A stretch of DNA of 64,000 nt, taken from NCBI RefSeq assembly GCF_024734405.1, contig NZ_CP059556.1, positions 1,860,001 through 1,924,000 on the forward strand, in the 5' to 3' direction. Under the pieces are notes generated by a model. That model was not told the origin of the DNA and ran no database searches. It worked only from the letters and a program-made list of their open reading frames with translations. The position numbers and the translations under genes are program-made. Below, one piece after another: positions 21,577 to 59,630 of this stretch (position 1 is the first letter of the stretch; every line of letters starts with the position of its first letter). The DNA comes from Saccharopolyspora gregorii. Its GTDB lineage: Bacteria > Actinomycetota > Actinomycetes > Mycobacteriales > Pseudonocardiaceae.

Positions 21577-21733
21577 TTCCTGTCAGCGGCGAAGTCGCTG
21601 AGCAGCGACCGCGCACGTAGCAGGACCACCCGCGGGTTCTCAGCGCTTCCCTCGCGAGGACAGCGTTTTCTCCTGTGGCGGAGCCACCGGTGAAAACGAT
21701 CCCGCAGCGAGGGAAGCGCTGAGGTTCCGCCAC
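21577..21733 (+). repeat. Structured intergenic repeat, copy A
   Basis: About 157 bases. It has a small 5' hairpin (TCAGCGGC...GTCGCTGA), then a long hairpin. The outer 17-bp arms CTCAGCGCTTCCCTCGC (21639-21655) and its exact complement (21707-21723), an inner CGTTTTC/GAAAACG pair (21664-21670, 21692-21698) and a GTGGC-GGA-GCCAC tip form one extended structure. The same element recurs at 51617, 55424 and 59474. This copy lies between two same-strand PKS genes, where it could act as an attenuator or processing site. Confidence 0.9.
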
Positions 21734-21786
21734 CGGACCCGCAGAGCACGACGAGCCCGGAGACAAGCCGAGCAAAGGACTGACCG

Positions 21787-24700
21787 GTGCAGGATGACCA
21801 GCAGGACAAAGTCGTCGACTACTTGCGGCGGCTCACCGTCGACCTGCGCCACGCGCGCAGGCGCATCGAGGAGCTGGAGGACCGCGAGCGGGAACCGATC
21901 GCGGTGGTCGGCATGGCGTGCCGCTACCCGGGCGGGGTGCGTTCGCCGGAGGACCTGTGGCAGCTGGTGGCGGCGGGCGCGGACGCGGTGTCGGACTTCC
22001 CCGCGGACCGCGGCTGGGACCTGGCGGCGCTGCGCCGCGACAGCACCACCACGACCGGCGGTTTCCTGGACGACGCGGCGGGGTTCGACGCGGAGTTCTT
22101 CGGGATCTCCCCGCGCGAGGCGCAGGCGATGGACCCGCAGCAGCGGCTGCTGCTGGAGGTGTGCTGGGAGGCGGTGGAGCGCGCCGGGGTGGTACCGGCG
22201 GCGTTGCGCGGCACCCGGGCCGGGGTGTTCGTCGGCTCCTACCACTGGGGCCGGTCGCAGGCGGTGGCCGCGGACCTGGGCGGGCACACGATGACGGGTA
22301 CGGCGGCGAGCGTGCTGTCCGGCAGGCTCGCGTACGCGCTGGGCCTGGAGGGCCCGGCGCTGACGGTGGACACGGCGTGCTCGTCGTCGCTGGTGGCGCT
22401 GCACCTGGCGGCGCGGTCGCTGCGCGCGGAGGAGTCGTCGCTGGCGATCGTCGGCGGGGTGACGGTGCTGTCCGACCCGTCGTTGTTCGTGGAGTTCAGC
22501 AGGCAGGGTGGGTTGTCGGCGGACGGACGCTGCAAGGCGTTCTCGGCGGACGCGGACGGCACGGGCTGGGCGGAGGGGGCCGGGGTGCTGGTGCTGCAAC
22601 GGCTCGCCGACGCGCGGCGGGAGGGGCGCGAGGTGCTGGCGGTGCTGCGCGGCAGCGCGGTGAACCAGGACGGCGCGTCGAACGGGCTGACGGCGCCGAA
22701 CGGCCCGGCGCAGCGGCGGGTGATCGAGCGGGCGCTGGCGAGCGCCGGGCTCGAGCCGTCCGATGTGGACGCCGTCGAGGCGCACGGCACGGGTACTCCG
22801 CTGGGTGATCCGATCGAGGCGCAGGCGCTGCTGGAGGCCTACGGGACCGGCCGGGACCGGCCGCTGTGGCTGGGTTCGTTGAAGTCGAACATCGGGCACG
22901 CGCAGGCCGCCGCCGGCGTCGGTGGCGTGATCAAGGTGGTGCAGGCGATGCGGCACGGCGTGCTGCCGCGCACCTTGCACGCGGCGGAACCGTCACCGCA
23001 CGTGGACTGGAGCGCCGGTTCGCTGCGCCTGCTGACCGAGCAGGTGGACTGGCCGGGCACCGATCGGCCGCGGCGGGCCGCGGTGTCCTCGTTCGGGGTG
23101 AGCGGCACCAACGCGCACGCCGTGCTGGAGCAGGCGCCGCCGGTGGCGGCCGGCGAGCCCGGCGACGCGGCACCGGAGTCCGGTGGCACCGTCCCGTGGG
23201 TGCTCTCCGCCCGCACCGAGCGGGCGTTGCGCGCGCAGGCCGAGCGGCTGGCCGACCACCTCGGCTCCGCCGAGCCGGATCCGGTGGACGTCGGGCATGC
23301 GCTGGTGCGCACCCGCTCGTCGTTCGAGCACCGCGCCACCGTGCTCGGCGCGGACCGGGAGCGGCTGCTGTCCGGGTTGCGCTCGCTCGCCGCGGACACC
23401 CCGGACCCGTCGGTCGTGCGGGGCGTCGCGGACGTCGGCGCCGACGGCGGGATCGTGTTCGTCTTCCCCGGCCAGGGCGCCGCGTGGGCCGGGATGGGTC
23501 GCGCGCTGCTGGCCGAGTCACCGGTGTTCGCGGCGCGCATCGCCGAGTGCGAGCAGGTGTTCGCCGAGTTCGTGGACTGGTCGCTGGTGGCGGTGCTGCG
23601 CGGCGCGGACGGCGCCCCGTCGCTGGAGCGCGACGACGTGCAGCAGCCGGCGACGTTCGCGGTGATGGTGGCGCTGGCCGAGCTGTGGCGGTCCCGCGGC
23701 GTCGAACCCGATGCGGTGGTGGGCCATTCGCAGGGCGAGATCGCGGCCGCGGTGGTGGCCGGGGCGCTGTCGTTGCGGGACGGCGCGCAGCTGGTCGCGC
23801 GGCGCGGGAAGGTCATCGGCGAACGGCTCGCGGGCACCGGCGGCCTGCTCTCGGTGGCGCTGCCGCGCGACGAGGTGCAGCGCCGGATCGAGGGCCGGGA
23901 GCTGTCGCTGGCCGCGGTGAACGGCCCGGCGTCGGTGGCGGTGTCCGGTTCGGAGGCAGAGCTGGACGCGCTGGCCGCGGAGCTCGTCGCGGAGGACGTG
24001 CGGGTCCGCCGGGTCCCGATGGACTACCCGTCGCACTCCGCGCACGTGGAGCCGCTGCGGGAGGAACTGCTCGCCGGGTTCGCCGGGATCACCCCGCTGG
24101 TGCCGCGGGTCCCGTTCCGCTCCACCGTCACCGGCGAGTGGTGCACCGCGGCGGACACCGGACCCGAGCACTGGTTCCGGAACATGCGCGGCACCGTGCT
24201 GTTCGCCCCGGCCGTGGACGCCCTGCTGGCGGACGGTTTCCGGGTGTTCCTGGAGGTCGGGGCGCACCCGGTGCTGACCGCGGCCGTCCAGGACCTGATC
24301 GAGCGGCACGAGGTGCCCGCCGTCGCCACCGGCACGCTGCGCCGCGACGACGGCGGGCTCGACCGGTTCCTGACCGCGGCGGCCGAGGTGTTCGTCCGCG
24401 GCGCCGGGGTGGACTGGTCCCGCGACCTGCCCGGTGGCCGGGTGGTGGACCTGCCGACCTACGCCTTCCAGCACCAGCGGTTCTGGACCGGGCCGTCGCG
24501 GGCGGGCGATGCGGTGGACGCGGAGTTCTGGGCGGCGGTGGAGCAGCGGGACGCGCGGGCGCTGACCGCGAGCCCGGACGTGGACGAGCGGGCGCTGGCC
24601 GCGGTGCTGCCCGCGCTCTCGGCGTGGCGGGAGCAGCGCCGCGCGGCCTCGGCGGCCGACGCGTGGCGCTACGAGGTGGCCTGGACGCCGGTGGACGACC

Positions 24701-27700
24701 TGGGCGGGGTCCCGCCGGGCCGCTGGCTGCTGGTCGGCGCCGGCGAAGACGACGAGGTGGCGGACGCGCTCGCCGGGTGCGGCGTCCGGGTCGAGCGGCT
24801 GGTGCTCGACGAGTCCCACCTGGACCGGGACGTGCTCGCCGCCGGGCTGGCCGGTGCGGGCGGGGTCGCGGGCGTCGTCTCCACGCTCGCCGGCCACGAG
24901 GAGCCGGGGGAGCGGTACCCGGACCTGCCGCTGGGCTTGGCGTTGACCGTCTCCCTGGTGCAGGCGCTCGGCGACGCGGGAATCGACGCTCCGATGTGGA
25001 CGGTCACCCGGGACGCGGTGGCCGCGGCCGCGGACGACGCGGTGGCGAACCCGGTGCAGGCGCAGGTGCAGGCCGTGTCCTGGACGGCGGCGCTGGAACA
25101 TCCGCTGCGCTGGGGCGGGACCGTGGACCTGCCCGCGCGACCGGGCGAGCGGGACGCGTCGCTGCTGGCGGCGGTGCTCGCCGACCCGCGCGGTGAGGAC
25201 CAGCTGGCCGTCCGGGACGGCGCGGTGCTGGCCCGCCGCGTGGTGCGCGCCGCCGCACCGCACCCGGTGCGCAGCTGGGAACCGCGCGGCACGGTGTTGA
25301 TCACCGGCGGCACCGGCGCGATCGGGCCCGGCCTGGCGCGCTGGCTCGCCGAGCGGGGCGCGGCGCGCATCGTGCTCACCTCGCGGCGCGGCCCGGACGC
25401 CGAGGGCGTGCCGGAGCTGGTCGCGGAACTGGCCGAGCTCGGCACCGAGGTCACCGTCGAGTCCTGCGACGTGGCCGACCGGGACGCGCTCGCCGCGTTG
25501 CTGGACCGGCTCGCCGCCGCGGGCCACGAGATCCGCACCGCGGTGCACGCGGCCGTCACCATCGAGCTGGGCGCGCTCGACGAGCTCGACCTGGACTCGG
25601 TGCAGCGGGTGGTGCGCGCCAAGGTCGCCGGGGCGCGGCACCTGGACGCGCTGCTGGGCGACGACCTCGACGCGTTCGTGCTGTACTCCTCGATCGCCGG
25701 GATGTGGGGCAGCGGGTCGCACGCCGCCTACGCGGCCGGGAACGCCTACCTGGCGGCGCTGGCGCAGCAGCGGCGCGCTCGCGGGCTGACCGCCACCTCG
25801 TTGCACTGGGGGAAGTGGCCGGACTCCCCGGAGCTGGCCGCCGCCGACCGGCACGGGGCGCGCCGCAGCGGGCTGCGCATCCTCGACCCGGCCACCGCGT
25901 TCACCGCGCTGCACCGGGCGCTGGACGAGGACGCCGCGGTGCTCGCGCTGACCGACGTGGACTGGGCCGAGTACCACCAGGTGTTCAGCGCCGCCCGGCC
26001 CACCACCCTGTTCGACGACCTGCCCGAGGTGCGGGACCGGGCGGACGCTCCGGCCGAGACCGGCGGGTTCGCCGAGCGGCTGCGCGCGCTGCCCGCCGAG
26101 GAGCGGGCCGCGCTGCTGCTGGACCTGGTGCGCGCCGAGGCGAGCGCCGCGCTCGGCGGCTCCGGTGCGCTCGCCGACCACCGCGCGTTCCGCGAGGTCG
26201 GCTTCGACTCGGTGACCACCGTGGAGCTGCGGAACCGGCTGGTGCGCGCCACCGGACTCGCGCTGCCCAGCACCGTCGTGTTCGACCACCCGTCGCCCGC
26301 GGCGCTCGCCGACCACCTCGGGACCTGGTTCGACGGGGCCGGGCAGGCCCGCGTCGAGGTCCGCGGGCCCGCGGACGAACCGATCGCGATCATCGGCACC
26401 GGCTGCCGGCTGCCCGGTGGCGTCACCGGTCCCGACGAGCTGTGGCGGCTGGTGCGCGACGGCGTCGACGCGATCGGGCGAGCGCCGCAGGACCGCGGCT
26501 GGGACCTGGCCGAGCGCTACGACCCGGACCCGCAGCGGGCCGGGCGCACCTACTCGCTGCTCGGCGGTTTCCTGGACGACGCGGCGGGGTTCGACGCGGA
26601 GTTCTTCGGGATCTCCCCGCGCGAGGCGCAGGCGATGGACCCGCAGCAGCGGCTGCTGCTGGAAACCGGCTGGGAAGCGCTGGAACGCGCAGGCATCGAC
26701 CCGGCGTCGCTGCGCGGCACGGCCACCGGCACCTTCGTCGGCGCCACCCACCAGGGCTACAGCGCGAGCACCTTCGGCATCGACGACGGCACCGAGGGCC
26801 AGTACATCACCGGTGCCGCGGCGAGCGTGCTCTCCGGCAGGCTCGCCTACCTGCTCGGCCTGGAGGGACCGGCGCTGACCGTGGACACCGCGTGCTCGGC
26901 GTCGCTGGTGGCGCTGCACCTGGCGTGCCGCTCGCTGCGCTCCGGGGAGAGCTCGCTGGCGCTGGCCGCCGGATCGACCGTGATGGCCGGGCCGCAGGAC
27001 TTCCTCGGGTTCAGCAGGCTGGGCGCGCTGGCCGCGGACGGGCGCTGCAAGGCGTTCGCGGCGGGCGCCGACGGGATGAGCCTCGCCGAAGGCGTCGGCG
27101 TCCTCGTGCTGGAACGGCTGTCCGACGCGCGCCGCAACGGGCACCCGGTGCTGGCGGTGGTGCGCGGCTCGGCCACGAACCAGGACGGCGCCTCGAACGG
27201 GCTGACCGCGCCGAACGGGCCCGCGCAGCAGCGGGTCATCCGCGCCGCCCTCGCCGACGCCGGACTCGAACCGTCCGAAGTGGACGCCGTCGAGGCGCAC
27301 GGCACCGGCACCGCCCTCGGCGATCCGATCGAGGCGCAGGCGCTGCTGGCCACCTACGGCGCGGCCGAGCGGACCTCGCCGCTGTGGCTGGGGTCGCTGA
27401 AGACGAACATCGGGCACTCGCAGGCCACCGCGGGCATCGCGGGCGTGCTCAAGGTGGTGGAGGCGATGCGGCACGGTGTGCTGCCGCGCACCCTGCACGC
27501 CGCCGAACCGACCGGGCACGTCGACTGGTCCGCGGGCCGGGTGCGGCTGCTCACCGACGAGGTCGAGTGGAACCCGGGACGGCCGCGGCGGGCCGGCGTG
27601 TCCGCGTTCGGCATCAGCGGCACCAACGCGCACGTCGTCCTGGAGCAGGCCCCGGCGGAACCCGCCGCCGAGCAGGAACCGCCCGGCAGCCGCGACGGGA

Positions 27701-30700
27701 TCGTGCCGTGGGTGCTGTCGGCGAAGTCCGAGGCCGCGCTGCGCGAGCAGGCCGCCCGGCTCGCCCCGGTCGCGCCCGACGCCGACCCGGCGGAGCTCGC
27801 GTGGTCGCTGCTGACGACCCGCGCCCGGTTCGAGCACCGCGCGGTGGTGCTCGGTGCGGACGCCGGCGAACTGGCCGCCGGGCTGGACGCGCTCGCCGCC
27901 GGTGGCGCCGGGGACGCGGTGCGCGGCAGCGACGTCGGCGGCCCCGGCCCGGTGTTCGTCTACCCGGGGCAGGGTTCGCAGTGGCGCGGCATGGGGCGCG
28001 CGCTGCTCGCCACCTCCGCGGTGTTCGCGGACGCGGTCGACGAGTGCGAGCGCGCGCTGGCGCCGCACGTGGACTGGTCGCTGCGCGAAGTGCTCGACGG
28101 CACCGCCGCCCCCGAGCTGGCCGAGCGGGTCGACGTGGTGCAGCCCGCGCTGTTCGCCACCATGATCGCGCTCACCGAGCTGTGGCGGGCGCACGGCTGC
28201 ACGCCGTCCGCGGTGATCGGGCACTCGCAGGGCGAGATCGCCGCGGCCTGCGCGGCGGGCGCGCTGTCCCTGCCGGACGCGGCGCGGGTCGTGGCGCTGC
28301 GCAGCAAGGCGCTGCTGGCGCTGGCCGGGCAGGGCGGCATGGTGTCGCTGGCCGTGTCCGCGGAGCGCGCCACCGAGCTGCTCGAACCGTGGGCGCAGCG
28401 GGTGTCGCTGGCCGTGGTCAACGGGCCGTCCTCGGTGGTGGTCTCCGGTGAACCCGGTGCGCTGGAGGAGCTGCTCGCCGAGTGCGGGCGCCGCGAGATC
28501 CGCGCCCGGAAGGTCAACGTGGACTACGCCTCGCACGGCCCGCACGTCGAGCAGGTGCGGGCGGAGCTGGCCGAGGTGCTGGCCCCGATCACCCCGCGCC
28601 CGGCCGCGGTGCCGTTCTACTCCACCGTCACCGGGCAGCGGATGGACACGACCGGCCTGGACGCCGACTACTGGTTCGAGAACCTGCGCCGCACCGTGCG
28701 GATGGCCGAGGCGACGCGCGCCCTGCTGGCCGACGGCCGCCGCGCGTTCGTCGAGATCAGCCCGCACCCGGTGCTGGCCGCGGCCGTCGAGGAGACGGTC
28801 GAGGACGCCTGCCCGGAACCGGCGGTGGTGCTCGGCACGCTGCGCCGCGACGACGGCGGGCCGCGCCGGTTCCTGCGCTCGCTGGCGGAGGCGCACGCGC
28901 ACGGCGTCGAGGTGGACTGGACGCGCACCCTCACCGGCGCGCCCGCCCGGGCCGTGCCGCTGCCGACCTACCCGTTCCAGCACCGGCAGTACTGGTGGGC
29001 GCGGCGCGCGGAACGCGGCGGCGCACCCGATTCCGCGTTCTGGGAGCTGGTCGACCGCGGCGATCCGGCGGCGCTGTCCGCGGAACTCGGCGTGGACGGC
29101 GCGGCGGTGCTGCCCGCGCTGGCCCGCTGGCGGGATCGGTCCCGGCACCGCGCCGAGGCCGAGGAGCTGCGCTACCGGATCGGCTGGACCCGGCTGCCCG
29201 CGGCCGAGCGCGCGGGCACCCGGCTGGTGGTGGTGCCCGATTCCGCGGACGAGTGGACGTCGGCGGTGCTCGACGCGCTCGGGCCGGACGTCGACGTGCT
29301 CCGCACCAGCGCCGCGGACCGCGCCGAGCTCGCCGCCGAACTGCGCGCGGCCACCACGGACCGCGAGTTCCGCTCGGTGCTCTCGCTGCTCGCCGCGGCC
29401 GCGGCCGACCCGGCGCGCGCCGCGCTGCTGCAGGTGCAGGCGTTCGCCGACGCCGGTCCGGCCGCGCCGCTGTGGTGCGCGACCCGGGCCGCGGTGTCCG
29501 TGGCCGGTGAGGACGTGCGCCCCGAGCAGACCGCCGCGTGGGGCCTGGGCCGCGTCGCCGCGCTGGAGCTCCCGGACCGGTGGGGCGGCCTGCTGGACCT
29601 GCCGGAGGAGCTGGACGAGGCGACCGCGCGGCTGCTGCCCGGCGCCGCGTCCGGGGCGGAGGACCAGGTGGCGCTGCGCGGCGGGCTGGCGCACGGCCGC
29701 AGGTTGCTGCGCCCCGCCCCCGCGTCCGGCGACGGGTTCCGCACCGGCGGGACCGCGCTGATCACCGGTGGCACCGGTGGCGTCGGCTCGTTCGTCGCGA
29801 AGTGGGTCGTGGAGCGCGGCGCCGAGCACGTGGTGCTCGCCGGTCGCCGCGGCCCCGACGCGCCCGGCGCGGACCGGCTCGCCGCCGAACTGCGGGAACT
29901 GGGCGCGCGGGTCACCGTCGCCGCCTGCGACGTGGCCGACCGGGACGCGTTGGGGAAGCTGCTGGCCGAGGTCGGCGAGCTCCGCTCGGTGTTCCACGCC
30001 GCCGGGGTCGCCGACGGCGACGCCCCGGTGCTCGAACTCACCGGGCAGCGGCTGGACGCGCTGCTGCGCGCCAAGCGGGACGCGGCGCGGCACCTGCACG
30101 AGCTCACCGCCGGGCACCCGCTGGACGCGTTCGTGCTGTTCTCCTCCGGCGCCGCCGCCTGGGGCAGCGGCGGGCAGCCGGGGTACGCGGCGGCGAACGC
30201 CTTCCTCGACGGCCTGGCCGAGCACCGCCGCGCGCGCGGGCTGCCCGCCACGTCGGTGGCCTGGGGCACCTGGGGCGCGGCCGGGATGGCGGCCGACGAC
30301 GCGACGGGCGACCGGTTGCGCAGGCAGGGGGTGCCCGCGATGCGGCCGGACGTCGCGCTCGGCGGACTCGACCGGTCCATCGTGGACGGTGCGGCGACGG
30401 CGGTGGTCTCCGCGCTGGACTGGGAGAAGTTCGCCCCCGGCTTCACCGCCGCCCGGCCGAGCCCGCTGCTGGCCGAGCTCCCCGAGGCCCGCGCGGTGCT
30501 GGACACCGCACCCGCGGCCGCCGGCTCCGGCGGGCTGCGGGACCGGTTGCGGAGCCTGCCCGCCACCGAACGCGCCAAGGCGCTGCTGGAGGTGGTGCGC
30601 GGCGAAGCCGCCGCCACCCTCGGCCACGACGGCGCGCACGCCGTGCCCGCGTCCCGCGCGTTCAAGGACGTCGGCTTCGACTCGGTGACCGCGGTGGAGC

Positions 30701-31032
30701 TGCGCAACCGGCTGCGCACCGCCACCGGGCTGCCGCTGCCCGCGGCGCTGGTGTTCGACCACCCGACCCCGTCGGCGCTGGCCGCGCACCTGGCCGCCGA
30801 GCTGTTCGGCGACGCCGCGGACCGGCCGGACGATCCGGACGACCGCATCCGCGAGGTCCTCAGCACCATCCCGCTCGGCAGGCTGCGCCAGGCGGGCCTG
30901 CTGGACGTGGTGCTGCGGCTGGCCGAGGACGACCCGGAGCCCGCCGCGGCCGAACCCGCCGCGGCCGCGGACTCCATCGACGACATGGACGCCGAGAGCC
31001 TGCTGCGGCTGGCGACCGGCACCAGCGAGTGA
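21787..31032 (+). CDS. Type I PKS, extension modules 1-2: two KS-AT(methylmalonyl)-KR-ACP
   Basis: 3,081 residues; GTG 21787 after AAAGGA at 21774. An N-terminal coiled-coil docking segment (about 1-35) should meet the loading protein. Module 1: KS Cys198; AT Ser648 in GHSQGE with YPSH at 747-750; KR with Trp1307, His1312 and Tyr1315 and no LDD, an A2-like fingerprint; ACP Ser1475. Module 2 (from about 1531): KS Cys1703; AT Ser2147 in GHSQGE with YASH at 2247-2250; KR with Trp2792, Gln2797 and Tyr2800, A1-like; ACP Ser2966. GHSQGE and YxSH indicate methylmalonyl-CoA. No DH is present. The product is a chain with two methyl branches and two hydroxyls, as made by NysB/AmphB. The C-terminal tail ([19 protein letters not shown]) is a docking element. 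The next gene follows after 14 bases. Confidence 0.95.
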
Positions 31033-49000: not shown

Positions 49001-51581
49001 CGCCGTGGAACTCGCCGAGGCGGGCACCGCGCTGTTCACCGGCACGCTGTCCCGCCGCACCCACCCGTGGCTGGCCGAGCACGTCGTCGGCGGCACCGCG
49101 CTGGTGCCCGGCACCGCGCTGCTGGAGCTGGCGCTGCGCGCGGGGGAGGAGACCGGCTGCGACCGCGTCGACGAGCTCACCCTCACCGCACCGCTGGTGC
49201 TGCCCGCGCGCGGCGGCGTGCAGGTGCAGGTCGCGGTCGCCGCCCCGGATGCGGACGGCCGCCGCACGCTCACCGTGCACGCCCGCGAGGACACCGGGCA
49301 GGACTGGCGGCTGCACGCCACCGGCTCGCTCGCCCCGGCCGCCGGGGAACCGGCCGAGCTCGGCGCCTGGCCGCCGCCCGGTGCGGAACCGCTCGACGTG
49401 GCCGATTGCTACCAGCGGTTCGCCGACCTGGGCTTCGACTACGGGCCGGTGTTCCAAGGGCTGCGCGCCGCCTGGCGCGACGCGGACGCGGTGTTCGCCG
49501 AGGTCGCCCTGCCCGCCGAGGTGGACGTCGCGGGCTACGGCCTGCACCCGGCGTTGCTGGACGCGGCGCTGCACGCGGCGATCCTCGCGAGCTCCGGCGA
49601 CGGCGAGCTCCCCTTCGAATGGCGCGGCGTCACCGCGCACGCCACCGGCGCCCGCGCGCTGCGGGTGCGGCTGACCCGCGACGGGGAGGCGCTGCGCCTC
49701 GCCCTGACCGACCCGGCCGGGGCGCCCGTCGCGACCGTCGAAGCGCTGCGCACCCGGGAAGCCGCACCGGTGCGGCGAGGCATCGGCCGGGACTCGCTGT
49801 TCCGCCGCGACTGGGCCGAACCCGCCACCACCGGTGCGCCCGCCGAGGTCCCGGCGCTGGCCGGACCCGACCCGTTCGGACTGGCCGAGCTGTTCCGCGC
49901 AGCCGGGCGGCCTGCCGAGAACCACGAGCGCCCCGGCGACGCGGCCGGGACGGTGCTGTGCTCGCTGGACGGCGGCGACGAGCCCGCCGCAGCGCACGCC
50001 CGCACCCGGCAGGTCCTCGACCTGGTGCGGGAGCACCTCGCCGCCGAGCGTGCCGGGACGCTCGTGTTCGTCACCCGCGAAGCCGACCTCGCGGCCGCCG
50101 CCGCGGCCGGGCTGGTGCGCACCGCCGCCACCGAACACCCCGGCCGGTTCGCGCTGCTCGACCTCGGCACCGGGACGGTCACCGCCGACGCGGTGCTGCG
50201 GGCGCTGGCCGTCGGCGAACCGCACGTGTCCCTCGTGGACGGTGCGCCGGGAGTGCCGCGGCTGGTGCGGGCCGAACCGGCCGAGCCGGTCGGCTGGGAC
50301 GCGACCGGCACCGTGCTCATCACGGGCGGCACCGGCGGACTCGGCCGCGTGCTGGCCCGGCACCTCGCCGGTCGAGGGGTGCGGCACCTGCTGCTGGCGA
50401 GCAGGCGCGGACCCGACGCCGAGGGGGCCGCCGAGCTGGTCGCCGAACTGGCCGAACTCGGCGCGCACGCCGAACTCGCCGCCTGCGACCTCGCGGACCG
50501 GGCCGACGTGGACGCGCTGCTCGCCGGGATCCCGGCGGACCGGCCGCTGCGCGCGGTGCTGCACGCGGCGGGCGTGCTCGACGACGGGACGCTCGACTCG
50601 CTCACCCCGGACCGGCTGGACGCGGTGCTGCGGCCGAAGGTCGACGCCGCCTGGCACCTGCACGAGGCCACCCGCGACCACGAGCTCATCGCGTTCGCCC
50701 TGTTCTCCTCGGTGGCCGGGATGGTCGGCACCGCCGGTCAGGGCAACTACGCGGCCGCGAACTCCTACCTCGACGCGCTGGCCCGGTACCGCCGGGAACG
50801 GGGCCTGCCCGCCGTCTCGATGGCGTGGGGCGCGTGGGAGAACGGCATGGCCGGGGCGCTCGACGAGCGGGACACCGCGCGGCTGGCCCGCGCCGGAACC
50901 CCGCCGCTGGACGAAGAACTCGGCCTCGCCCTGTTCGACGCGGCGCTCGCCGCGGACGACCCGGTGCCCGCGCCGGTGCGGCTCGACCTGGCCGCGCTGC
51001 GCGCCCAGGACGACCCGGCGCCGTTGCTGCGCGGCCTGCTGCGCACCTCGGCGCGGCGGACCGCGAGCACCGGCGAGGACCTGGCCGCGGCGCTCGCCGC
51101 CCAGACCGGACCGCAGCGCCGCGACACCCTGCTGGAACTGGTGCGCACCCACGCCGCCCAGGTCCTCGGGCACGCCGACGCGGCGGGCATCGAACCGCAC
51201 GCCGAGTTCAAGGGCCTCGGCTTCGACTCGCTCACCGCCGTCGAGTACCGCAACCGGATGGGCGCGGTGACCGGACTGCGGCTGCCCGCCACCCTGCTGT
51301 TCGACCACCCGACCCCGGCGGAGCTCGTCGAGCACCTGCTCGGCGAACTCGCCCCGGAACGCGGTGGGGCGGCGGCGCTGCTGGCCGAACTGGACCGGCT
51401 GCACCGGGCCTTCGACGGGCTCGACGTGGACGAGGAGCTGCACGAGCAGGTCACCGGACGGCTCGACGTGCTGCGCAGCAAGTGGAGTGCGCTGCGCGGC
51501 GGGGAGACCTCCGAGGAGTTCAGCTTCGACGAAGCCAGCGACGAGGACATCTTCCAGATGCTCGACGATGAGCTGTCTTGA
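31047..51581 (+). CDS. Type I PKS, four KS-AT(malonyl)-DH-KR-ACP modules (polyene segment, modules 3-6)
   Basis: 6,844 residues; ATG 31047 with GGGGG 6 bases upstream; helical N-terminal docking segment. All four modules are complete. KS Cys 204, 1890, 3579, 5267. AT Ser 636, 2332, 4022, 5715, each with HAFH (733, 2429, 4117, 5813), so malonyl-CoA. DH His 934, 2632, 4317, 6012 in HxxxGxxxxP, with Asp 1093, 2796, 4474, 6172. KR Tyr 1496, 3186, 4875, 6568 with LDD or VDD (B-type, giving trans alkenes after dehydration). ACP Ser 1661, 3350, 5038, 6728. No ER is present, so each module leaves a double bond: four in conjugation, extendable if the next protein starts with another DH module. The equivalent nystatin/amphotericin protein has six modules. 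The C-terminal docking tail is acidic. Repeat copy B follows the stop. Confidence 0.96.
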
Positions 51582-51616: not shown

Positions 51617-51775
51617 GTGGCGGAACCTCAGCGCCCTCCTCGCTGCGGGATCGTTTTCACCGGTGGCTCCGCCACAGGAGAAAACGCTGTCCTCGCGAGG
51701 AGGGCGCTGAGAACCCGCGGGTGGTCCTGTTGATCGGGTGGTCGGCGGCTCAGCGGCTTCGCCGCTGACAGGAAG
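51617..51775 (-). repeat. Structured intergenic repeat, copy B (inverted relative to A)
   Basis: About 159 bases downstream of the four-module PKS. Outer arms CTCAGCGCCCTCCTCGC (51627-51643) and its exact complement (51695-51711), inner CGTTTTC/GAAAACG (51652-51658, 51680-51686), tip GTGGC-TCC-GCCAC, and a separate perfect 8-bp hairpin TCAGCGGC-TTC-GCCGCTGA (51750-51768). The arms differ from copy A at three positions, each with the matching change on the other arm. It lies between convergent genes and may end PKS transcription. Confidence 0.9.
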
Positions 51776-52907: not shown

Positions 52908-53929
52908 GCTCGCTCCACAGCGGTCGGGGAGGGGGGCGCGTCGCGCGCGTGCCGGGCGAGCGCCAGGTACACGTCGTCCAAGGTCGGTTCGCCGAAGGCC
53001 AGCTCGGCCGCCTCGATCCCGGCTTCGTCGAGGACCCGGACCACCGCGGCCGTCTCCCGGGACTCCTCGATCGGCGTGACGACGGCGGCGCCGTCCTGCG
53101 CGACCGACGGGGCGAAACCGGCGCGCCGCAGCGCCGCGCAGCCGGTCTCCGCGGTGGAACCGGGGCCGAGCACGACGGTGACGGTGCGCGTGCCGACCTG
53201 CGCCTTGAGCTCCGCGGCCGACCCGGAGGCGACGACGGTTCCGGCGGAGAGCACGGTGATGGTGTCGGCGAGCCGGTCCGCCTCGTCGAGGTACTGGGTG
53301 GTCAGCAGCACCGTGGTGCCCTCCGCGACGAGGCGTTCCACGATGTCCCACATCGCCATCCGGCTCGACGGGTCCAGTCCGGTCGTCGGCTCGTCCAGGA
53401 AGATCACTTCGGGGTTCCCGACGAGGCAGGCCGCCAGGTCCAGGCGCCGCCGCATCCCGCCGGAGTAGGTGCCCGCCCGGCGGCTCGCGGCGTCGGTGAG
53501 GTCGAAGGCCTCCAGCAGTTCCGCGGCCCGCGCGCGGGCACGGCCTCCGTCGGCGCCGAGCAGCCGGGCCAGCATCACGAGGTTGTCCCGGCCGCTCATC
53601 TGCTCGTCCACCGAGGCGAACTGGCCGGTGAGGCCGATGCGCTTGCGCACCTCCCGCGGCTGCTCGGCGACGTCGAAGCCAGCGACCCTGGCCACCCCGG
53701 ACGTCGCGGGCAGCATCGCGGTCAGCACGTTCACCAGCGTCGTCTTGCCCGCGCCGTTGTGCCCGAGCAGGCCGAGGACCGAGCCGCGCGGCACGCTCAA
53801 CGTCACCGAATCCAGCGCGGGCACCGCGCCGAAGGACTTGCCGACGCCGATCGCCTCGATCATCGGAGTCCCGGCGCCGACGGCACCGCGGTCGGGCCGC
53901 TCGCCGGGTGCCGTTGGCAGCACGGTCAT
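52904..53929 (-). CDS. ABC exporter ATP-binding protein (DrrA-like)
   Basis: 341 residues. Walker A GHNGAGKTT (56-64), signature YSGGMRRRLDLA, Walker B VIFLDEP, switch His replaced by Gln-containing LLTTQYLDEADRL, and a DrrA-type C-terminal extension ending in EPTLDDVYLAL. ATG 53929 is chosen because GGAG lies 6 bases upstream; in-frame sequence further upstream has no ribosome site. It powers the adjacent DrrB-like permease, with which it overlaps by four bases, and diverges from the second glycosyltransferase gene. A role in exporting the macrolide is inferred from its place between PKS and sugar genes. Confidence 0.93.
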   Translation of the reverse strand: MTVLPTAPGERPDRGAVGAGTPMIEAIGVGKSFGAVPALDSVTLSVPRGSVLGLLGHNGAGKTTLVNVLTAMLPATSGVARVAGFDVAEQPREVRKRIGLTGQFASVDEQMSGRDNLVMLARLLGADGGRARARAAELLEAFDLTDAASRRAGTYSGGMRRRLDLAACLVGNPEVIFLDEPTTGLDPSSRMAMWDIVERLVAEGTTVLLTTQYLDEADRLADTITVLSAGTVVASGSAAELKAQVGTRTVTVVLGPGSTAETGCAALRRAGFAPSVAQDGAAVVTPIEESRETAAVVRVLDEAGIEAAELAFGEPTLDDVYLALARHARDAPPSPTAVERA

Positions 53930-54178
53930 GCGTGGCTCCCCCGCAACTGGTTCGTCGTGTGCCCCGGGGGACGTGCTCGCGTCTCCCCAGGATCCGCGAG
54001 CCGAGCATGCGGTACCGGTCCACGCCGGGCCAACGGCTAGCACCGAAACACTCGTGCGACGACTAGAACAGGCCGCGCCCCGGGCTCCGGCGGGTCGGAT
54101 TCCGCGCCATCTCTAGGGATTCGCCCACCGGGCCGCAACGTAGCTTGGCGGCGCCCGTCGAGCGAAAGGGAAACGCGC
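53930..54178. promoter_or_regulatory. Divergent promoter region of exporter and second glycosyltransferase
   Basis: 249 bases between outward-facing starts. It contains one operator-like 16-mer at 54113-54128 (listed separately) and, 11 bases further on, TAGCTT (54141-54146), a possible -10 for the rightward gene. The exporter side shows no clear promoter boxes by eye. Confidence 0.55.
54113..54128 (+). promoter_or_regulatory. PAS-LuxR (PimM-type) operator-like sequence upstream of second glycosyltransferase
   Basis: CTAGGGATTCGCCCAC matches 13 of 16 positions of CTVGGGAWWTCCCBAG, the best match I found in the window. It lies 51 bases before the glycosyltransferase ATG, overlapping the expected -35, which is where PimM binds in pimaricin promoters. 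Confidence 0.5.
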
Positions 54179-55420
54179 ATGCGAGTGCTGTTCGCGGTGT
54201 CCGCCTGGCCGGGGCACTACTTCCCGCTGGTCCCGCTGGGCTGGGCGCTGCGCGCCGCGGGCCACGACGTGCGGGTGCTGTGCGCGGAGTCCGAAGTGGA
54301 CCCGGTGTCGCGGGCGGGTCTGACCCCGGTCCCGGTGTTGCGCGGGCTCGACCTGCTGCTCGGCGCGCGGCTGATCAACCTGCTCGGCGCGCACCGGGGG
54401 AACTGGCCGTACCCGGCGCCGCCGCTGCACCCGCGGACGGGCGAACCGCTGGACCTGGCGTCCTTCGACTTCGGCGCCTGGCACGAGGAGCTGCGGCCGG
54501 TGCTGCTGGAGCACGCCACCCGCAGCACCGACGCCGCCGTCTCCTACGCCCGGGACTGGCGCCCCGACCTGGTCGTGCACGACCTGATGAGCGTGGAGGG
54601 CCCGCTGGTCGCGAAGGTGACCGGGGTGCCCGACGTCCTGCAGCTGTGGGGACCGGTCGGCACCGGCGACGACTACAGCCCCGTCGGCGGCGGTGCACCG
54701 GAACCCGCGGTGCCGGTGGACACCAGCGGCGCCTTCGCCCGCTACGGCGTCGGCGAGATGGGTTTCCACCACGTGGACCACGTGCTGGACCCGTGCCCGG
54801 CGCAGCTCCGCCCGAACGGGCCCGAACCCCGCATCCCGTCGCGCTACGTCCCGTACAACGGCCCCGGCTCGGCGCCGCTGGACGTGCCGCCGCGCGGCGG
54901 CCGGCCGCGGGTGTGCGTGGTGTGGGGCCGGTCGGCGACCCGCACGTTCGGCGCGACGGTGAACAAGATGCCGCAGGTGGTGGCGGCCGCGACCGGGCTG
55001 GGTTGCGAGGTGCTGCTGCTGGCCTCGCCCGCGGACGCGCGCGAGTGCGGGCCGCTGCCGGAGTCGGTGCACGTGCGGACCGACCTGCCGCTGAGCCTGG
55101 CGCTGCCCGGGTGCGACGCGGTGGTGCACTACGGCGGCGGGGGAGCGACGATGACCTCGGTGGTGGCGGGGGTGCCGCAGCTGGCGCTGCCGTGCGGGTT
55201 CGACCAGACGCTGATGGCCCGGCGGATCACCGGTTCCGGGGCGGGGCTGGACATCCCGAACTGGGAGGCCGACGCCGAGGGCATCGGCGGAGCGCTGCAC
55301 CGCCTGCTCACCGAACCGGCGTTCACCGGGTCGGCCGCGGAAGTGGCCTCCTCGGCGAACGAACTACCCGCCCCGGCCGAAGCGGTCCTCGCGCTTCGGG
55401 ATCTCGTCGCGGGGGGATGA
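54179..55420 (+). CDS. Second glycosyltransferase, EryCIII/macrolide deoxysugar family (GT1)
   Basis: 413 residues, GT-B fold. The N-terminus (MRVLFAVSAWPGHYFPLVPL) is that of activated-sugar transferases of the macrolide/anthracycline type. The donor-binding block HYGGGGATMTSVVAGVPQL with downstream LPCGFDQ is the variant of the HxGGxGT...P...DQ motif seen in that family. It differs clearly from the polyene transferase at 16791, so the product should bear two sugars. ATG 54179 is preceded by AAAGGG at 8 bases. It stands alone between divergent exporter genes and the convergent dideoxysugar operon, whose NDP-sugar is the likely donor. Acceptor (aglycone hydroxyl or the first sugar) cannot be told from sequence. 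An operator-like site lies 51 bases upstream. Confidence 0.9.
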   Translation: MRVLFAVSAWPGHYFPLVPLGWALRAAGHDVRVLCAESEVDPVSRAGLTPVPVLRGLDLLLGARLINLLGAHRGNWPYPAPPLHPRTGEPLDLASFDFGAWHEELRPVLLEHATRSTDAAVSYARDWRPDLVVHDLMSVEGPLVAKVTGVPDVLQLWGPVGTGDDYSPVGGGAPEPAVPVDTSGAFARYGVGEMGFHHVDHVLDPCPAQLRPNGPEPRIPSRYVPYNGPGSAPLDVPPRGGRPRVCVVWGRSATRTFGATVNKMPQVVAAATGLGCEVLLLASPADARECGPLPESVHVRTDLPLSLALPGCDAVVHYGGGGATMTSVVAGVPQLALPCGFDQTLMARRITGSGAGLDIPNWEADAEGIGGALHRLLTEPAFTGSAAEVASSANELPAPAEAVLALRDLVAGG

Positions 55421-55423
55421 GGT

Positions 55424-55578
55424 TCCGCCCCTTCGGGGGGACCTCAGCGCTTTCCTCGCCGCGGGATCGAGTGCACCGGTGGCTCCGCCACAGGCGACAA
55501 CGCCGTCCTCGCGGGGAAATCGCTGAGAAACCGCGGGCGTGCGTGGTCTCCGCTCAGCGGCGTCGCCGCCGACCGGAA
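55424..55578 (-). repeat. Structured intergenic repeat, copy C (degenerate, same orientation as B)
   Basis: Between the convergent glycosyltransferase and 4-ketoreductase genes. Outer arms CTCAGCGCTTTCCTCGC (55443-55459) and GCGGGGAAATCGCTGAG (55511-55527) pair with one G-U and one mismatch. The GTGGC-TCC-GCCAC tip is intact, the inner stem is lost, and the flanking hairpin TCAGCGGC-GTC-GCCGCCGA has one mismatch. It is the most decayed of the four copies. Confidence 0.8.
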
Positions 55579-55637
55579 GAGGGCACGGCCTCGCCGCGCG
55601 GTTTCCTGCGTCACGAGTTCCGCCGGATCGGCGGCGA

Positions 55638-56414
55638 TCAACCGGAGTGAAAGTCCACTGTGGACGTCAGTAGGTAGGAGTGCAGGTACCGGTCCAGGAG
55701 GTCGTCCAGGTAGCCGGGGCCGAAGTCGTGCTCGGCGAACGCGGGCACCAGCCGGTGCAGCTTCGCCAGGTCCACCCGGGTCAGCTGCGGTGGGCGCGAC
55801 AGCGCCCGCACCTCGGGGTCGGCGTCCAGCCGCCGCCGCAGCGCCGCCACCACGGCCGGCACCGGGATCGGCACCCCGGAGGCCACGTTCACCACCTCGT
55901 CGCGCACGCCCGCCGCGCACAGCGCGTCGAGCACCGGCGGCACGTGCCGCACGTCCAGCAGGTCGCGGTGCGCCTCGGGGTGCACCGTCACCACCCCGTC
56001 CAGCACGCCGCGCACCAGCGACGGCAGCAGCTGCGCGGGCTGCTGCCCGTCCCCGACCAGGTGGGTCAGCCGCAGCACCAGGAACCGCGCGCCGGAGAGC
56101 TCGCACACCCGCTCCAGCGCCAGCTTGTGCCTGCCGTAGGCGTTCAGCGGGAACACCGGGCCGTCCTCGCGCCCCGGCGTCCCGTCGGCGCCGTAGATCG
56201 CCGCCGAGGACGTGGACAGGAACACCGCGGTCCGCCCGTCCGCCCGGCAGCGCCGCAGCACCTCGCCGACCAGCGCCGCCTCCCGGTCGAACTCGGCGGT
56301 GTCCGCGGCGGCCGTGGTGGACACCCCGGCGGCGATCAGCACCACCTCCGGGTGCGCCGCGCCGAGCCGCGCGGTGCAGTGCCGGGCGAGGAAACCGCTG
56401 CCGACGACCTCCAT
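55638..56414 (-). CDS. NAD(P)-dependent NDP-hexose 4-ketoreductase/epimerase-like SDR
   Basis: 258 residues, short-chain dehydrogenase fold of the NAD-dependent epimerase/dehydratase class. N-terminal nucleotide loop GSGFLA is a shortened form of GxxGxxG; STSSAAIYG provides the Ser and NAYGRHK the YxxxK catalytic pair. In deoxysugar operons such proteins reduce the 4-keto group as the last step (EryBIV-like role). ATG 56414 shares one base with the stop of the upstream 3-ketoreductase (TGATG). It is the third gene of the operon 2,3-dehydratase, 3-ketoreductase, 4-ketoreductase. The stereochemistry, hence digitoxose versus olivose or another sugar, cannot be read from the sequence. Confidence 0.85.
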   Translation of the reverse strand: MEVVGSGFLARHCTARLGAAHPEVVLIAAGVSTTAAADTAEFDREAALVGEVLRRCRADGRTAVFLSTSSAAIYGADGTPGREDGPVFPLNAYGRHKLALERVCELSGARFLVLRLTHLVGDGQQPAQLLPSLVRGVLDGVVTVHPEAHRDLLDVRHVPPVLDALCAAGVRDEVVNVASGVPIPVPAVVAALRRRLDADPEVRALSRPPQLTRVDLAKLHRLVPAFAEHDFGPGYLDDLLDRYLHSYLLTSTVDFHSG

Positions 56415-57397
56415 CAGGCGGGCACCCGCACCGCGGCGGCCCGCACCTGCTCCACCAGCCGCGCGGTCTCCTCGGCCGCGTCCAGCCACGCCGGTTCGTC
56501 CGGCGCGCGGTCCAGCACGGCGCGGGCGAACGCGGCGATCGAGTCGCGGAACTGGTGGGCGGGGACGAGCACGAACTCCTCGGCGTGGTCCTGCTCGTCG
56601 ACGCGCAGCAGCGGCGGGTGCTCGGCGGGCGGGGTGAACGCGCGGTCCAGCCCCAGCGCGCCCGTCGCGCCCCACAGCCCGTAGCGGGACCGGTAACCGT
56701 GCTGGAAGCCGAACTCCAGGTCGGCGAACACGCCGTCCGGCGACACGAGCAGCGCGTGCCCGGCCAGGTCCACACCGCGCCGCTCGTCCATCCGCAGCAC
56801 CGCGCCGGACAGCGCCAGGCCCGGACCGAGCAGCAGCTGCGCCGCCCGGATCGGGTAGACCCCGACGTCGAGCAGGGCACCGCCGCCGAGCGCCGCGTCG
56901 TAGCGGATGTCGGAGTCCGGCAGCGGCGGGATCCCGAAGGTCGCGGTGAACGTGCGCAGCGCCCCGATCCGCCCGTCCGCGACGAGATCGGCGACGGTCC
57001 GGTGCTGCGGGTGGTGCAGGAACGCGAAGTTCTCCCGCAGCACCAGGTTCCGCTCCCGCGCCAGCGCGGTCAGCTCCCGGGTGCGGTCGGCGCGGTCGGT
57101 GAGCGGTTTCTCGCACAGCACGTGCTTCCCGGCGCGCAGCGCCCGCAGCGCCCACTCGTGGTGCAGCGCGGTCGGCAGCGACAGGTAGACGGCATCGACC
57201 TCGGGATCGTCCAGCAGCGCCGCGTAGCCGGTGGTGGCGGTGCCGCCGAAGCGGTCCGCGAACTCGGCCGCCTTCGCCGCGTCCCTGCTGGCGACCGCGG
57301 TGATCTCCAGCTCGGGGATCTCGGCGGCGGCGGGCAGCGTGCGGCGCCGCGCGATCGCCGAGCAGCCCAGCACGCCGAGCCGCACCCGCCGGCTCAC
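56414..57397 (-). CDS. NDP-hexose 3-ketoreductase (Gfo/Idh/MocA family)
   Basis: 327 residues. Rossmann start LGVLGCSAIARR, then CEKPL with the conserved lysine of the Gfo/Idh/MocA family, and a C-terminal sheet domain. Family members such as SpnN, UrdT and KijD10 reduce the 3-keto group formed by NDP-hexose 2,3-dehydratase, giving a 2,6-dideoxy-4-keto sugar. The GTG start at 57397 overlaps the dehydratase stop by four bases (GTGA), and the stop overlaps the next gene by one base, so all three are translationally coupled. The gene order dehydratase-ketoreductase fits channelling of the unstable 3,4-diketo intermediate. Confidence 0.9.
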   Translation of the reverse strand: MSRRVRLGVLGCSAIARRRTLPAAAEIPELEITAVASRDAAKAAEFADRFGGTATTGYAALLDDPEVDAVYLSLPTALHHEWALRALRAGKHVLCEKPLTDRADRTRELTALARERNLVLRENFAFLHHPQHRTVADLVADGRIGALRTFTATFGIPPLPDSDIRYDAALGGGALLDVGVYPIRAAQLLLGPGLALSGAVLRMDERRGVDLAGHALLVSPDGVFADLEFGFQHGYRSRYGLWGATGALGLDRAFTPPAEHPPLLRVDEQDHAEEFVLVPAHQFRDSIAAFARAVLDRAPDEPAWLDAAEETARLVEQVRAAAVRVPA

Positions 57398-58827
57398 CGC
57401 AGGCCCCGCAGGCAGGCGATGAGGCTGCGGGCCTGCACGTTCACGTAGTGGCTGTGCTCCAGCAGCCCGGTCAGCTGGCGCAGCGCCAGCCACCGGAAGT
57501 CCGGCAGGTCCGAGTCGGGGAAGTCCGCGTCCACCTCGATGATCTGGTACCGGTTGCGGGCCTGGTAGAACCGGCCGCCCTCCTCGGACAGCTCGGTGTC
57601 GAACAGCACCTGCTCGGGCCGCCTGCTCAGCACCACGTCCAGGTGCGGCGGCCGGTAGTCGACGCCGAGACCGGCGTAGTTCTCGGGGGTGCACTGCACG
57701 GTCGGCGCCAGCTCCACCACGTCCAGGTAGCCGGGTTCGACGCGGGCGTTCAGCAGCGCGTGCAGCACCCCGTCGACCCGCTTCACCAGCAGCGCCACCA
57801 CTCCGGTGCCGTGCGGGTGCAGCAGCGGCTGGGTCCAGCCGCCGACCTCGCGGCTGTTGCTGCGCACGTCCACGGCCAGCACGGTGAAGAAGGTGCCGAG
57901 CTCGTGCCGGATCTCCGCGTCGGTGCGCCGCCAGCCGCGCACCGCGTGCAGCGGGATCAGCGAGGCCCGGACCTGGTGCTCGGCCTGCCGGGAGGTGATC
58001 CAGCTGCGCACCTCGGCGGTGGTGTGCAAGGTGCCCGAGCGCGGATCCCGGGACCGCGCCAGCGCGCCCGCCAGGTCCGAACCGTCCACTTCGGACCCCT
58101 CGAACCCGCCGGGGAGGCAGGACAGCACGGTGCGGGCGTCCATGTTCACCAGGTCGTCCACCGCCAGCAGCCGGTGCAGCTGGCCGATCGTCACCCAGCG
58201 GAAGTCCTCGTGCTCCGCGACCGGTTCGCGCACCTCCACCAGCATGTTCCGGTTGCGCTTGCGGAAGAACCACGAGCCCTGCTCGGACTGCAGCACGTCG
58301 CTGAGCACCTGCTGACCCGCGGCGTCGCGGAAGTGCTCCAGGTACGGCACCGCGCCGCCCTCGTGCACCCGCGTGTAGTTGCTGCGGGTGGCCTGCACGG
58401 TGGGGGACAGCTGCACCCCGTTCACGTTGCCGGGTTCGGTCTTCGCCTGCATCAGGCAGTGCAGCACCCCGTCGATCTCGCGCAGCAGGATGCCGAGGAT
58501 GCCGATCTCCGGCTGGTTGATGATCGGCTGCGTCCAGGAGCGCACCGGGCCGTGGTCGCTGGACACGCGCAGCCCCTGCACGCTGAAGAACTTGCCGCTG
58601 GTGTGCCCGAGGTCGCCGGTGGCGTCGTCGAAGCGCCACTTGTCCAGCTCCGCGAACGGGATCCGCCGCACGTCGTGCAGCTGCGCGGCGCCGCGCTCCC
58701 GCACCCAGGCCAACAGCTCCTCGGTGGAGTGCAGCGCGTCCCGCTCGGCGCGCGCCGAGCGCGCCAACCGGTGCGGCAGGGTCGTGTCCGGCTTGCGCAG
58801 CAAGCCCGTTCCGGCGGAGGGCGCCAT
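57394..58827 (-). CDS. NDP-hexose 2,3-dehydratase (EryBVI/SpnO/TylCVI family)
   Basis: 477 residues built from two homologous halves, the hallmark of this family. WTQPIINQPEIGILGILL with MQAKTEPGN and SPTVQAT in the first half echoes WTQPLLHPHGTGVVALLV with LNARVEPGY and APTVQCT in the second. It removes the C2 hydroxyl of dTDP-4-keto-6-deoxyglucose, the committed step to 2-deoxysugars. ATG 58827 is preceded by AGGAG at 6 bases. It is the first gene of a three-gene coupled operon. dTDP-glucose synthase, 4,6-dehydratase and any 3,5-epimerase or C-/O-methyltransferase are not in the window, so a plain D-2,6-dideoxyhexose is the simplest product. Confidence 0.95.
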   Translation of the reverse strand: MAPSAGTGLLRKPDTTLPHRLARSARAERDALHSTEELLAWVRERGAAQLHDVRRIPFAELDKWRFDDATGDLGHTSGKFFSVQGLRVSSDHGPVRSWTQPIINQPEIGILGILLREIDGVLHCLMQAKTEPGNVNGVQLSPTVQATRSNYTRVHEGGAVPYLEHFRDAAGQQVLSDVLQSEQGSWFFRKRNRNMLVEVREPVAEHEDFRWVTIGQLHRLLAVDDLVNMDARTVLSCLPGGFEGSEVDGSDLAGALARSRDPRSGTLHTTAEVRSWITSRQAEHQVRASLIPLHAVRGWRRTDAEIRHELGTFFTVLAVDVRSNSREVGGWTQPLLHPHGTGVVALLVKRVDGVLHALLNARVEPGYLDVVELAPTVQCTPENYAGLGVDYRPPHLDVVLSRRPEQVLFDTELSEEGGRFYQARNRYQIIEVDADFPDSDLPDFRWLALRQLTGLLEHSHYVNVQARSLIACLRGLR

Positions 58828-59019
58828 CGGGATCTCCTCACGGCGGTGCTGCCGGCGATCCGCTGGCGCGGCAGGCCGGGTCGCGACCATTCCTACCCGG
58901 GAAAGATTAGGAGAAACCCCAAGCCCGGCCGGCGGTTCCACGATCGGATGATTGCGCGCGGAGCTCGCCGGGTAGCCGGGGGCTGATCGCGATTTCCGAA
59001 CGGGAGGAGGCGCAGCACC
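58828..59019. promoter_or_regulatory. Divergent promoter region, dideoxysugar operon and CBS gene
   Basis: 192 bases. It has a less GC-rich patch with CCCGGGAAAGATTAGG at 58896-58911, a partial (left-half) likeness to the GGGAWW sites near the other sugar and PKS promoters. GGAGGAGG at 59003 is the ribosome site of the CBS gene. This is probably the right border of the polyene cluster. Confidence 0.5.
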
Positions 59020-59433
59020 ATGACGACCGCACGGGAGATGATGACCGCGGGCGCCGAATGCGTGAACACCGATCAGACCGCCGCGGACGCGGCGCGCAAG
59101 ATGACCGACCTCGGCGTCGGGGCGCTGCCCATCTGCGGGCCGGACGAGAAGATCAAGGGAGTGATCACCGACCGGGACCTGGTCGTCAAGGTGGTCGGCA
59201 AGGGCCGCGACGCCGGGACCTTCCCCGCCGGGGACCTGAACCAGGCCGAGGCGATCACCGCGGGCGCCGACGACTCCGCGGAGGAGGTGCTCGCGACCAT
59301 GAAGGACCACCAGGTGCGCCGGGTGCCGGTGATCGACGGGCAGCGGCTCGTCGGCATGGTGTCGCTCGGCGACGTCGCCAAGGCGCTGCCGCACCACGAG
59401 GTCGGAGACCTGGTGGACACCCTGTCCACCTGA
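59020..59433 (+). CDS. Two-CBS-domain protein (Hrp1-like)
   Basis: 137 residues consisting almost only of two CBS motifs: first half AREMMTAG...GVGALPICG...GVITDRDLV, second half VRRVPVIDGQRLVGMVSLGDVA. Short stand-alone CBS pairs of this type are common in actinobacteria (mycobacterial Hrp1) and bind adenylates; their role is often tied to hypoxia or stress. ATG 59020 has GGAGGAGG at 59003-59010. Nothing links it to polyketide synthesis except adjacency, and it likely marks the genome flank. Repeat copy D follows its stop. Confidence 0.9.
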   Translation: MTTAREMMTAGAECVNTDQTAADAARKMTDLGVGALPICGPDEKIKGVITDRDLVVKVVGKGRDAGTFPAGDLNQAEAITAGADDSAEEVLATMKDHQVRRVPVIDGQRLVGMVSLGDVAKALPHHEVGDLVDTLST

Positions 59434-59473
59434 CCAGGTGTCTCGGAACCCGCGTGGCCGGTCCGGTCCGTCG

Positions 59474-59630
59474 TCCTGTCAGCGGCGAAGCCGCTGAGCT
59501 GACGACCATGCGGGCAACCCGCACCGCCGCGGGTTCTCAGCGGTTCCCCCGCGAGGACAGCGATTGCGCATGTGGCGGAGCCACCTGCGCAATCGATCCC
59601 GCAGCGGGGGAACCGCTGAGGTTCCGCCAC
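59474..59630 (+). repeat. Structured intergenic repeat, copy D (same orientation as A)
   Basis: Between the convergent CBS and monooxygenase-fold genes. 5' hairpin TCAGCGGC-GAA-GCCGCTGA is perfect (59479-59497). Outer arms CTCAGCGGTTCCCCCGC (59536-59552) and exact complement (59604-59620). Inner CGATTGCGCA/TGCGCAATCG (59561-59570, 59586-59595) and GTGGC-GGA-GCCAC tip. Relative to copy A the outer stem has two and the inner stem several changed pairs, all compensated. Confidence 0.9.

Follow-up and report, generated by a model that had tools for sequence, protein, structure and literature searches.

The window analysed here is a 64,000-nucleotide stretch (1860001-1924000) of the single 6,344,421-base contig of Saccharopolyspora gregorii (genome G000), and it contains four copies, A to D, of an intergenic repeat made of a short hairpin followed by a long one. 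All four copies claimed in a preliminary description of this DNA are found at the coordinates given there. Copy A (21577..21733, + strand; 186.6 bits in a covariance model of the repeat) is flanked by the called genes 18380-21559 and 21787-31032, both on the + strand, and is sense with them. Its short hairpin (21583..21603, +) has a GAA loop and one stem T that gives a G.T pair, and its long hairpin (21632..21730, +) has 48-nt arms that are 77% complementary and a GGA tip loop. The other three copies occupy convergent gaps. Copy B (51617..51775, - strand; 184.7 bits), which has its 3' model end 34 nt away from the stop of the + gene that terminates at 51581, contains a short hairpin with a GAA loop (51748..51768, -) and a long hairpin located by inverted-repeat search (51620..51718, -). 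Copy C (55424..55578, - strand; 118.6 bits) is degenerate, has a GAC loop in its short hairpin (55552..55572, -), and its model end is 11 nt from the stop codon ending at 55420. Copy D (59474..59630, + strand; 170.8 bits) has its 3' model end 33 nt from the stop of the - strand gene 59665-59991, a GAA loop in the short hairpin (59479..59499, +), and 48-nt arms, 79% complementary, in the long hairpin (59529..59627, +).

The perfect outer arms and the GTGGC-GGA-GCCAC tip that had been described for the long hairpin hold for copies A, B, and D, while copy C has mismatched arms. The long hairpins of A, B, and D are the three longest inverted repeats of the window (arms at most 60 bases apart), and copy A has a folding energy z-score of -8.2 relative to 200 dinucleotide shuffles. 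A pattern for the short hairpin matches four times in the window and never in 100 dinucleotide shuffles; the tip pattern alone is short, matching five times at up to two mismatches with 1.85 expected. At curated thresholds, Rfam 15 assigns no family to the repeat copies in the window, where its matches are to ASpks alone, at other places. These are eight - strand matches (7636-47351) within large + strand genes that resemble polyketide synthase (PKS) genes, and we take them for the model picking up a conserved coding stretch rather than for eight small RNAs.

The four copies belong to a large, mobile, structurally constrained repeat family, the size of which far exceeds the four-copy observation. 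Because one-mismatch matches to a sequence pattern were outnumbered by those of a reversed control pattern (125 for the query, 272 for the control), only exact matches and a covariance model built from 54 copies were used. With this model, G000 (6.34 Mb) contains at least 149 matches at E<=0.1 among the best 150 candidates scored, and the 126 at >=76 bits form our working set. The preliminary description had named a lack of further copies as grounds for rejecting its reading; many are found, both in this genome and in its relatives. Five congeners contain at least 73, at least 73, at least 73, 53, and 51 matches (best 73 candidates scored per genome). In 400-kb stretches there are 23 copies in G001, 22 in G003, and 11 in G000, and by extrapolation G001 and G003 may contain several hundred copies each. 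Under strict filters, 39 of 150 genomes of the family match at E<=1e-5, spread over 13 of 46 genera. A pattern scan of named genomes returned at least 120 stretches, mainly from Saccharopolyspora (S. spinosa among them) and also from Amycolatopsis, Saccharomonospora, Prauserella, and Sciscionella. No match to the repeat was found in plasmids and phages searched by similarity or in viral contigs searched with the exact pattern.

Among the PMC papers searched, we recognized none on this repeat. A transcriptome of Saccharopolyspora erythraea lists 190 putative intergenic non-coding RNAs, to which the repeat could not be linked (PMC3610266), and the actinomycete genomes named in a survey of REP sequences are three, none of which appears to belong to this family (PMC12306157).

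Several arrangements of copies depart from the single dispersed form. Two copies in G000 stand head to head with their short hairpins facing (4180262-4180601; locus L025, 1499-1855), and same-direction pairs 185-245 bp apart occur in G003 (near 1867219 and 1867463; L289, 7219-7624) and in S. rosea (L367, 4558-4906), an arrangement suggestive of duplication in place or of several insertions into the same site. Copies in G004 and G005 (L094, L095, L104, L105, L113, L114) form a subfamily with a different long-hairpin tip, similar in style to that of the G017 and G018 copies.

The fold is conserved by paired changes. The 54-row alignment yields 45 predicted pairs, of which 12 (8.6 in shuffles) change on both sides; 99.0% of cells are paired (92.9 in shuffles), 138 cells are changed on both sides (39.1 in shuffles), and the covariation score is 0.167 (0.056 in shuffles). 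None of 500 shuffles, which do not keep relatedness, reached any of these four values. A fifth measure, the number of further pair types, is not clearly exceeded (26 versus 23.4, with 32 of 500 shuffles as high). When partners are slid by 1-3 columns, 40-51% of cells are paired, a control that leans towards the structure, since these rows also served to derive it. Stem changes come in blocks that are matched across the arms, and the linkers barely change: the linker and loop motifs (within CGCGGGTTCTCAG, CGAGGACAGC, GATCCCGCAGC, and GAGGTTCCGC) show no change or at least 90% conservation across the 54 copies and recur in other genera while the hairpin tip changes. Together with compensated stems in Prauserella (see below), the excess on four of five measures supports the earlier suggestion that the structure is maintained.

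Mobility can be read from orthologous sites in other species. Among 80 distinct copy-by-genome comparisons, eight were dropped for flanks below 75%, and the remaining 72 comprise 41 in which the other species has an empty site, shorter by 150 bp or more, 19 in which its site is occupied, and 12 that are unclear, a class needed because a copy that has diverged registers as absent in this comparison. Counted per copy, flanks were usable for 56 distinct copies, and for 38 of these one or more other species have an empty site. Since these sites are empty in sister species, presence and absence being observed directly, we conclude that the element is mobile. Breakpoints were placed by split alignment of occupied and empty sites; 14 of 47 splits score >=170 with inserts within 180-260 bp (187-252), so the insert is about 190-250 bp long. 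At G000 1927192, for example, the occupied site reads ctctga[211 bp]tcgg and the G003 site ctctga|tcgg. The splits give no sign of a target duplication, within an uncertainty of several bases in the ends. Where the orthologous site is occupied, the two elements are 52-85% identical (13 distinct values, some pairs being repeats or PKS cross-matches), and the G003 copy at 1930285 is opposite in orientation to its G001 and G002 counterparts; because of the low identity and the reversed copy, re-insertion or replacement within the same gap is likely. The G002 site orthologous to G000 1927192 (L299) lacks the long hairpin and has a short-hairpin-like remnant directly after the stop codon. Solo short hairpins are also found at other places.

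Copies are placed preferentially beside stop codons. With genes called by our own codon-score gene caller, none of the 126 G000 copies lies inside a called gene; 75 are in convergent, 46 in tandem, and 5 in divergent gaps, versus 75, 356, and 108 of the 539 background pairs without a copy. In G001 and G003 combined, the 53 copies divide into 22 convergent, 28 tandem, 2 divergent, and 1 inside a called gene, and the 784 background pairs into 116, 533, and 135. The gene adjoining the 3' end of the element runs into it in 106 of the 126 G000 copies, and in 90 of these the model end is 20-43 nt from the stop. In G001 and G003, a stop is found on the 3'-end side in 37 of 52 copies, at 23-42 nt in 30 of the 37, while distances on the other side are spread over 20-425 nt. 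Fifteen tandem copies in G000 are reversed, ten of them with an end 34-52 nt from the next start; in G001 and G003, where a start adjoins this side in 15 copies, just 3 show the same arrangement. TGA as a target motif is not supported, because 544 of 596 background genes end in it. At two sites in G000 (1927192 and 5991022), a terminator-like hairpin that we regard as the native terminator persists on the far side of the element, and at other sites (e.g. 1253076 and 3332299) a like hairpin lies between the stop codon and the element.

Orientation in G000 also follows replication. The contig starts with genes that we take to be dnaA, dnaN, and recF from their translated starts; with the origin at the contig start and the terminus at the opposite point, 92 of 126 copies are alike relative to replication (P = 2e-7; P = 0.001 versus the leading-gene share of 401/684). 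In convergent gaps 53 of 75 are alike (P = 4.5e-4), and in co-directional gaps the ratio of antisense to sense copies is 25:5 beside leading genes and 6:10 beside lagging genes (P = 0.003). Replication strand was rejected as a general orientation rule, being not replicated in G003.

Whether the fold is recognized as DNA or as RNA has evidence on both sides. The preliminary description had proposed an RNA element, a protein-bound DNA hairpin, or a small non-autonomous mobile element; the empty sites in congeners support the last, and between the RNA and DNA forms the results lean, with moderate support, to a folded DNA strand. On the strand read in the preliminary description, the 126 copies comprise 5,027 Watson-Crick, 70 G.T, 41 A.C, and 97 other cells, a count that leaves out two pairs at which almost every copy has G.T. 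In columns 81-83, the three most variable pairs, G.T outnumbers A.C by 38 to 3 on the same strand. A census of short-hairpin loops in 317 copies, 50 of which have no stem of >=5 bp, found GNA in 206, GNNA in 35, and other loops in 26 of the remaining 267; GNA or GNNA occurs in 8 of 522 strand counts of native intergenic hairpins used as a control. Most GNNA loops (28 of 35) have the form GNYA, which differs from the GNRA loops of RNA. Loops of both types closed by G-C pairs form extraordinarily stable DNA mini-hairpins, and the same loop types are at the apex of the short hairpin here, although the mini-hairpin study concerns aptamers (PMC4686876) and is not known to be linked to this element. 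Relative to the gene reading into the element, the strand that wobbles and loops favor is the antisense one.

The shape of one copy appears to have been preserved since it inserted. A group of six genomes from a single genus, with 1-3 matches each, is taken to be Prauserella from a P. aidingensis locus (L416) in which the element has the same place. In three of them (G087, G114, and G134) the sole match lies directly behind a gene that we take to be gatB, with conserved neighbors; the coordinates place one match behind gatB in G165, and those of G150 and G054 lie elsewhere. Counted by hand on the alignment of the 17-bp outer stem, two pairs change on both sides between G087 and G114 and four between G114 and G134, while two switches between Watson-Crick and G.T occur and no pair is lost. 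The P. aidingensis stem has 3 of its 17 pairs broken. Exchange between copies is unlikely because G087, G114, and G134 contain no second match, and from these sequences the copy appears to be vertically inherited. The G000 copy behind gatB (1253076; L135, about 5001-5160) sits beyond a terminator-like hairpin and is therefore probably independent of the Prauserella one; its tip is unlike most G000 copies and closer to those of other genera. An ancestral site of the whole family behind gatB is not supported, since a copy is beside gatB in 4 of 13 low-copy genomes (G087, G114, G134, and G165) and not in the other nine.

Candidate partner enzymes were sought among four families in carriers of the element. 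The Y1 family (PF01797) has no match in six of ten carriers (G000-G003, G018, and G019) and is present in G004, G005, G010, and G017. TnpB-like proteins (PF07282) have no match in G000, G001, G003, and G019; Y1 and/or TnpB-like relatives are present in other carriers. Reverse transcriptase (RT; PF00078) has no match in G000, G001, G003, G005, G010, G018, and G019 and is present in G017, and the DEDD transposase of IS110 (PF01548) has none in G000, G001, G005, G010, G018, and G019 and is present in G003 and G017. None of the four was thus found in G000, and they were rejected as partners there. The 31 proteins encoded between copies spaced by less than 3.5 kb include no family that recurs between different places. 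A search of 3.7 Mb, overlapping stretches included, for a composite with a gene between the short and long hairpins returned one weak pair, cut by a locus edge.

We propose, with a probability of roughly 0.5, that the repeats are a short, non-coding, non-autonomous mobile element recognized most likely as folded single-stranded DNA by an enzyme acting in trans. The family itself, its covariation, the presence or absence of copies between species, and their placement are shown by the data above; recognition as DNA rather than RNA, and likewise the trans-acting enzyme, we infer. According to this model, the two-hairpin fold, combining the GNA/GNNA-looped short hairpin and the long hairpin with its nearly fixed linkers, would be recognized as single-stranded DNA by a putative recombinase or transposase encoded elsewhere. 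Fresh insertions would go between genes, on the downstream side and mostly immediately behind a stop codon, placing them before a presumed native terminator hairpin in two cases and after one in some others, and one Prauserella copy may have been kept in shape following insertion. More tentatively, the repeats could represent an undescribed class of mobile element in Pseudonocardiaceae, in which mobility would depend on a folded single strand of DNA bearing a code of two hairpins with fixed linkers and a GNA mini-hairpin, the enzyme would lie outside Y1, RT, IS110, and TnpB, stop-codon edges would be the targets, and the Prauserella gatB copy would have been captured and selectively maintained; we regard this fuller version as possible but doubtful.

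Several observations weigh against the proposed mobile element. RNA parameters favor the opposite strand in 99 of 126 copies, and DNA parameters rate the strands nearly equally (the strand of the preliminary description better in 70, the other in 54 of 126). The loop and wobble counts come from related sequences, so their independence is overstated. The ends of the element are poorly defined, with conservation that fades outward without a sharp stop, and the orientation bias in G003, the contig of which also starts with dnaA, is 32 of 52 (P = 0.13) in a set combining the sequenced stretches examined with the 20 best covariance-model matches, or 11 to 10 in the first 400 kb alone. No partner enzyme was identified in a search of four families, which leaves room for another or diverged enzyme, and mobility is read from empty sites, movement not having been directly observed. 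Finally, the compensated single copy in Prauserella suggests a host function, for which it is the best hint and which pure mobility does not need.

That copy would fit a dispersed structured RNA at transcript 3' ends, serving as a terminator, stabilizer, or processing site and kept where useful, as would the genes that read into the 3' end of most copies at a short distance from the stop, the excess in convergent gaps, and the RNA energies that favor the transcript strand. However, a terminator-like native hairpin is retained beyond the element at two sites, orientation in co-directional gaps depends in G000 on gene strand relative to replication, wobbles and loops favor the strand antisense to the gene reading in, and Rfam has no family for the window copies or for five further loci (E<0.5), where one weak CRISPR-repeat match falls outside the element. 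Among the copies inspected, no T run, a feature of intrinsic terminators, adjoins the long hairpin. An RNA role is therefore, in our judgment, an unlikely though serious alternative. It is far less probable that the paired changes reflect template-switch correction of a quasipalindrome without selection on the fold. Such arm-to-arm copying, which the preliminary description asked to be weighed, also yields perfect arms with a new sequence and changes in blocks, but copying of whole arms should erase motifs that differ between the arms, and these are kept across the 54 copies and recur in other genera; near-fixed linkers and internal loops beside changing stems are not easily explained by it, and G.T intermediates occur.

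Among conventional mobile elements, a miniature inverted-repeat transposable element of a DDE transposon would likewise be dispersed, non-coding, and multi-copy, and a weak inverted match (TCTTCGAAC / GTTCGAAGA) lies near both ends of part of the copies. Its expected sharp, conserved terminal inverted repeats are not seen, as the ends are the least conserved part and two internal hairpins the conserved one, and with no target duplication evident within the uncertainty of the ends we consider this origin improbable. We give as little credence to a REPIN or an IS200/IS605-derived element moved by a Y1 transposase (RAYT or TnpA), despite the Y1 proteins of four carriers, since PF01797 has no match in G000-G003, G018, and G019, and PF07282 has none in G000, G001, G003, and G019. 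REP sequences have compensatory changes in their hairpins and are proposed to be recognized as single strands by a transposase acting in trans, and REPINs, like the element here, are short, intergenic, non-autonomous, many-copy hairpins (PMC3116915). A REPIN is, however, an inverted pair of REP sequences in one hairpin, whereas this element combines a long asymmetric hairpin with a different short one, is placed against stop codons, and occurs in six of ten carriers with no match to the RAYT (Y1) family that a REPIN needs in its genome. The element is REPIN-like in its working and shares the compensatory hairpin changes, yet lacks other REPIN features that we tested (the inverted REP pair and, in G000, a RAYT match), and as Y1, RT, IS110, and TnpB were not found in G000 we do not class it as a REPIN.

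Derivatives of IS200/IS605 (PATEs) have hairpins near both ends, as here, and make no target duplication, but G000 has no Y1 or TnpB-like protein. Derivatives of retroelements or group II introns and of IS110 (bridge RNA) would call for a host RT or DEDD transposase, neither of which was found in G000. ERIC, BOX, RUP, Correia, and MIRU are small dispersed intergenic repeats with palindromes, as is this element, and differ from it in their hosts and, as described, in their sequences.

The family thus represents an abundant and, judged by its empty sites, recently mobile system in antibiotic-producing actinomycetes, one for which genome sequences reveal compensatory change, empty sites, and placement alike. 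Should its partner enzyme be new, it would provide a further way of moving DNA via folded single strands. If the element acts as RNA, it would be a large family not found in Rfam, located at many gene ends, some of them beside polyketide synthase genes.

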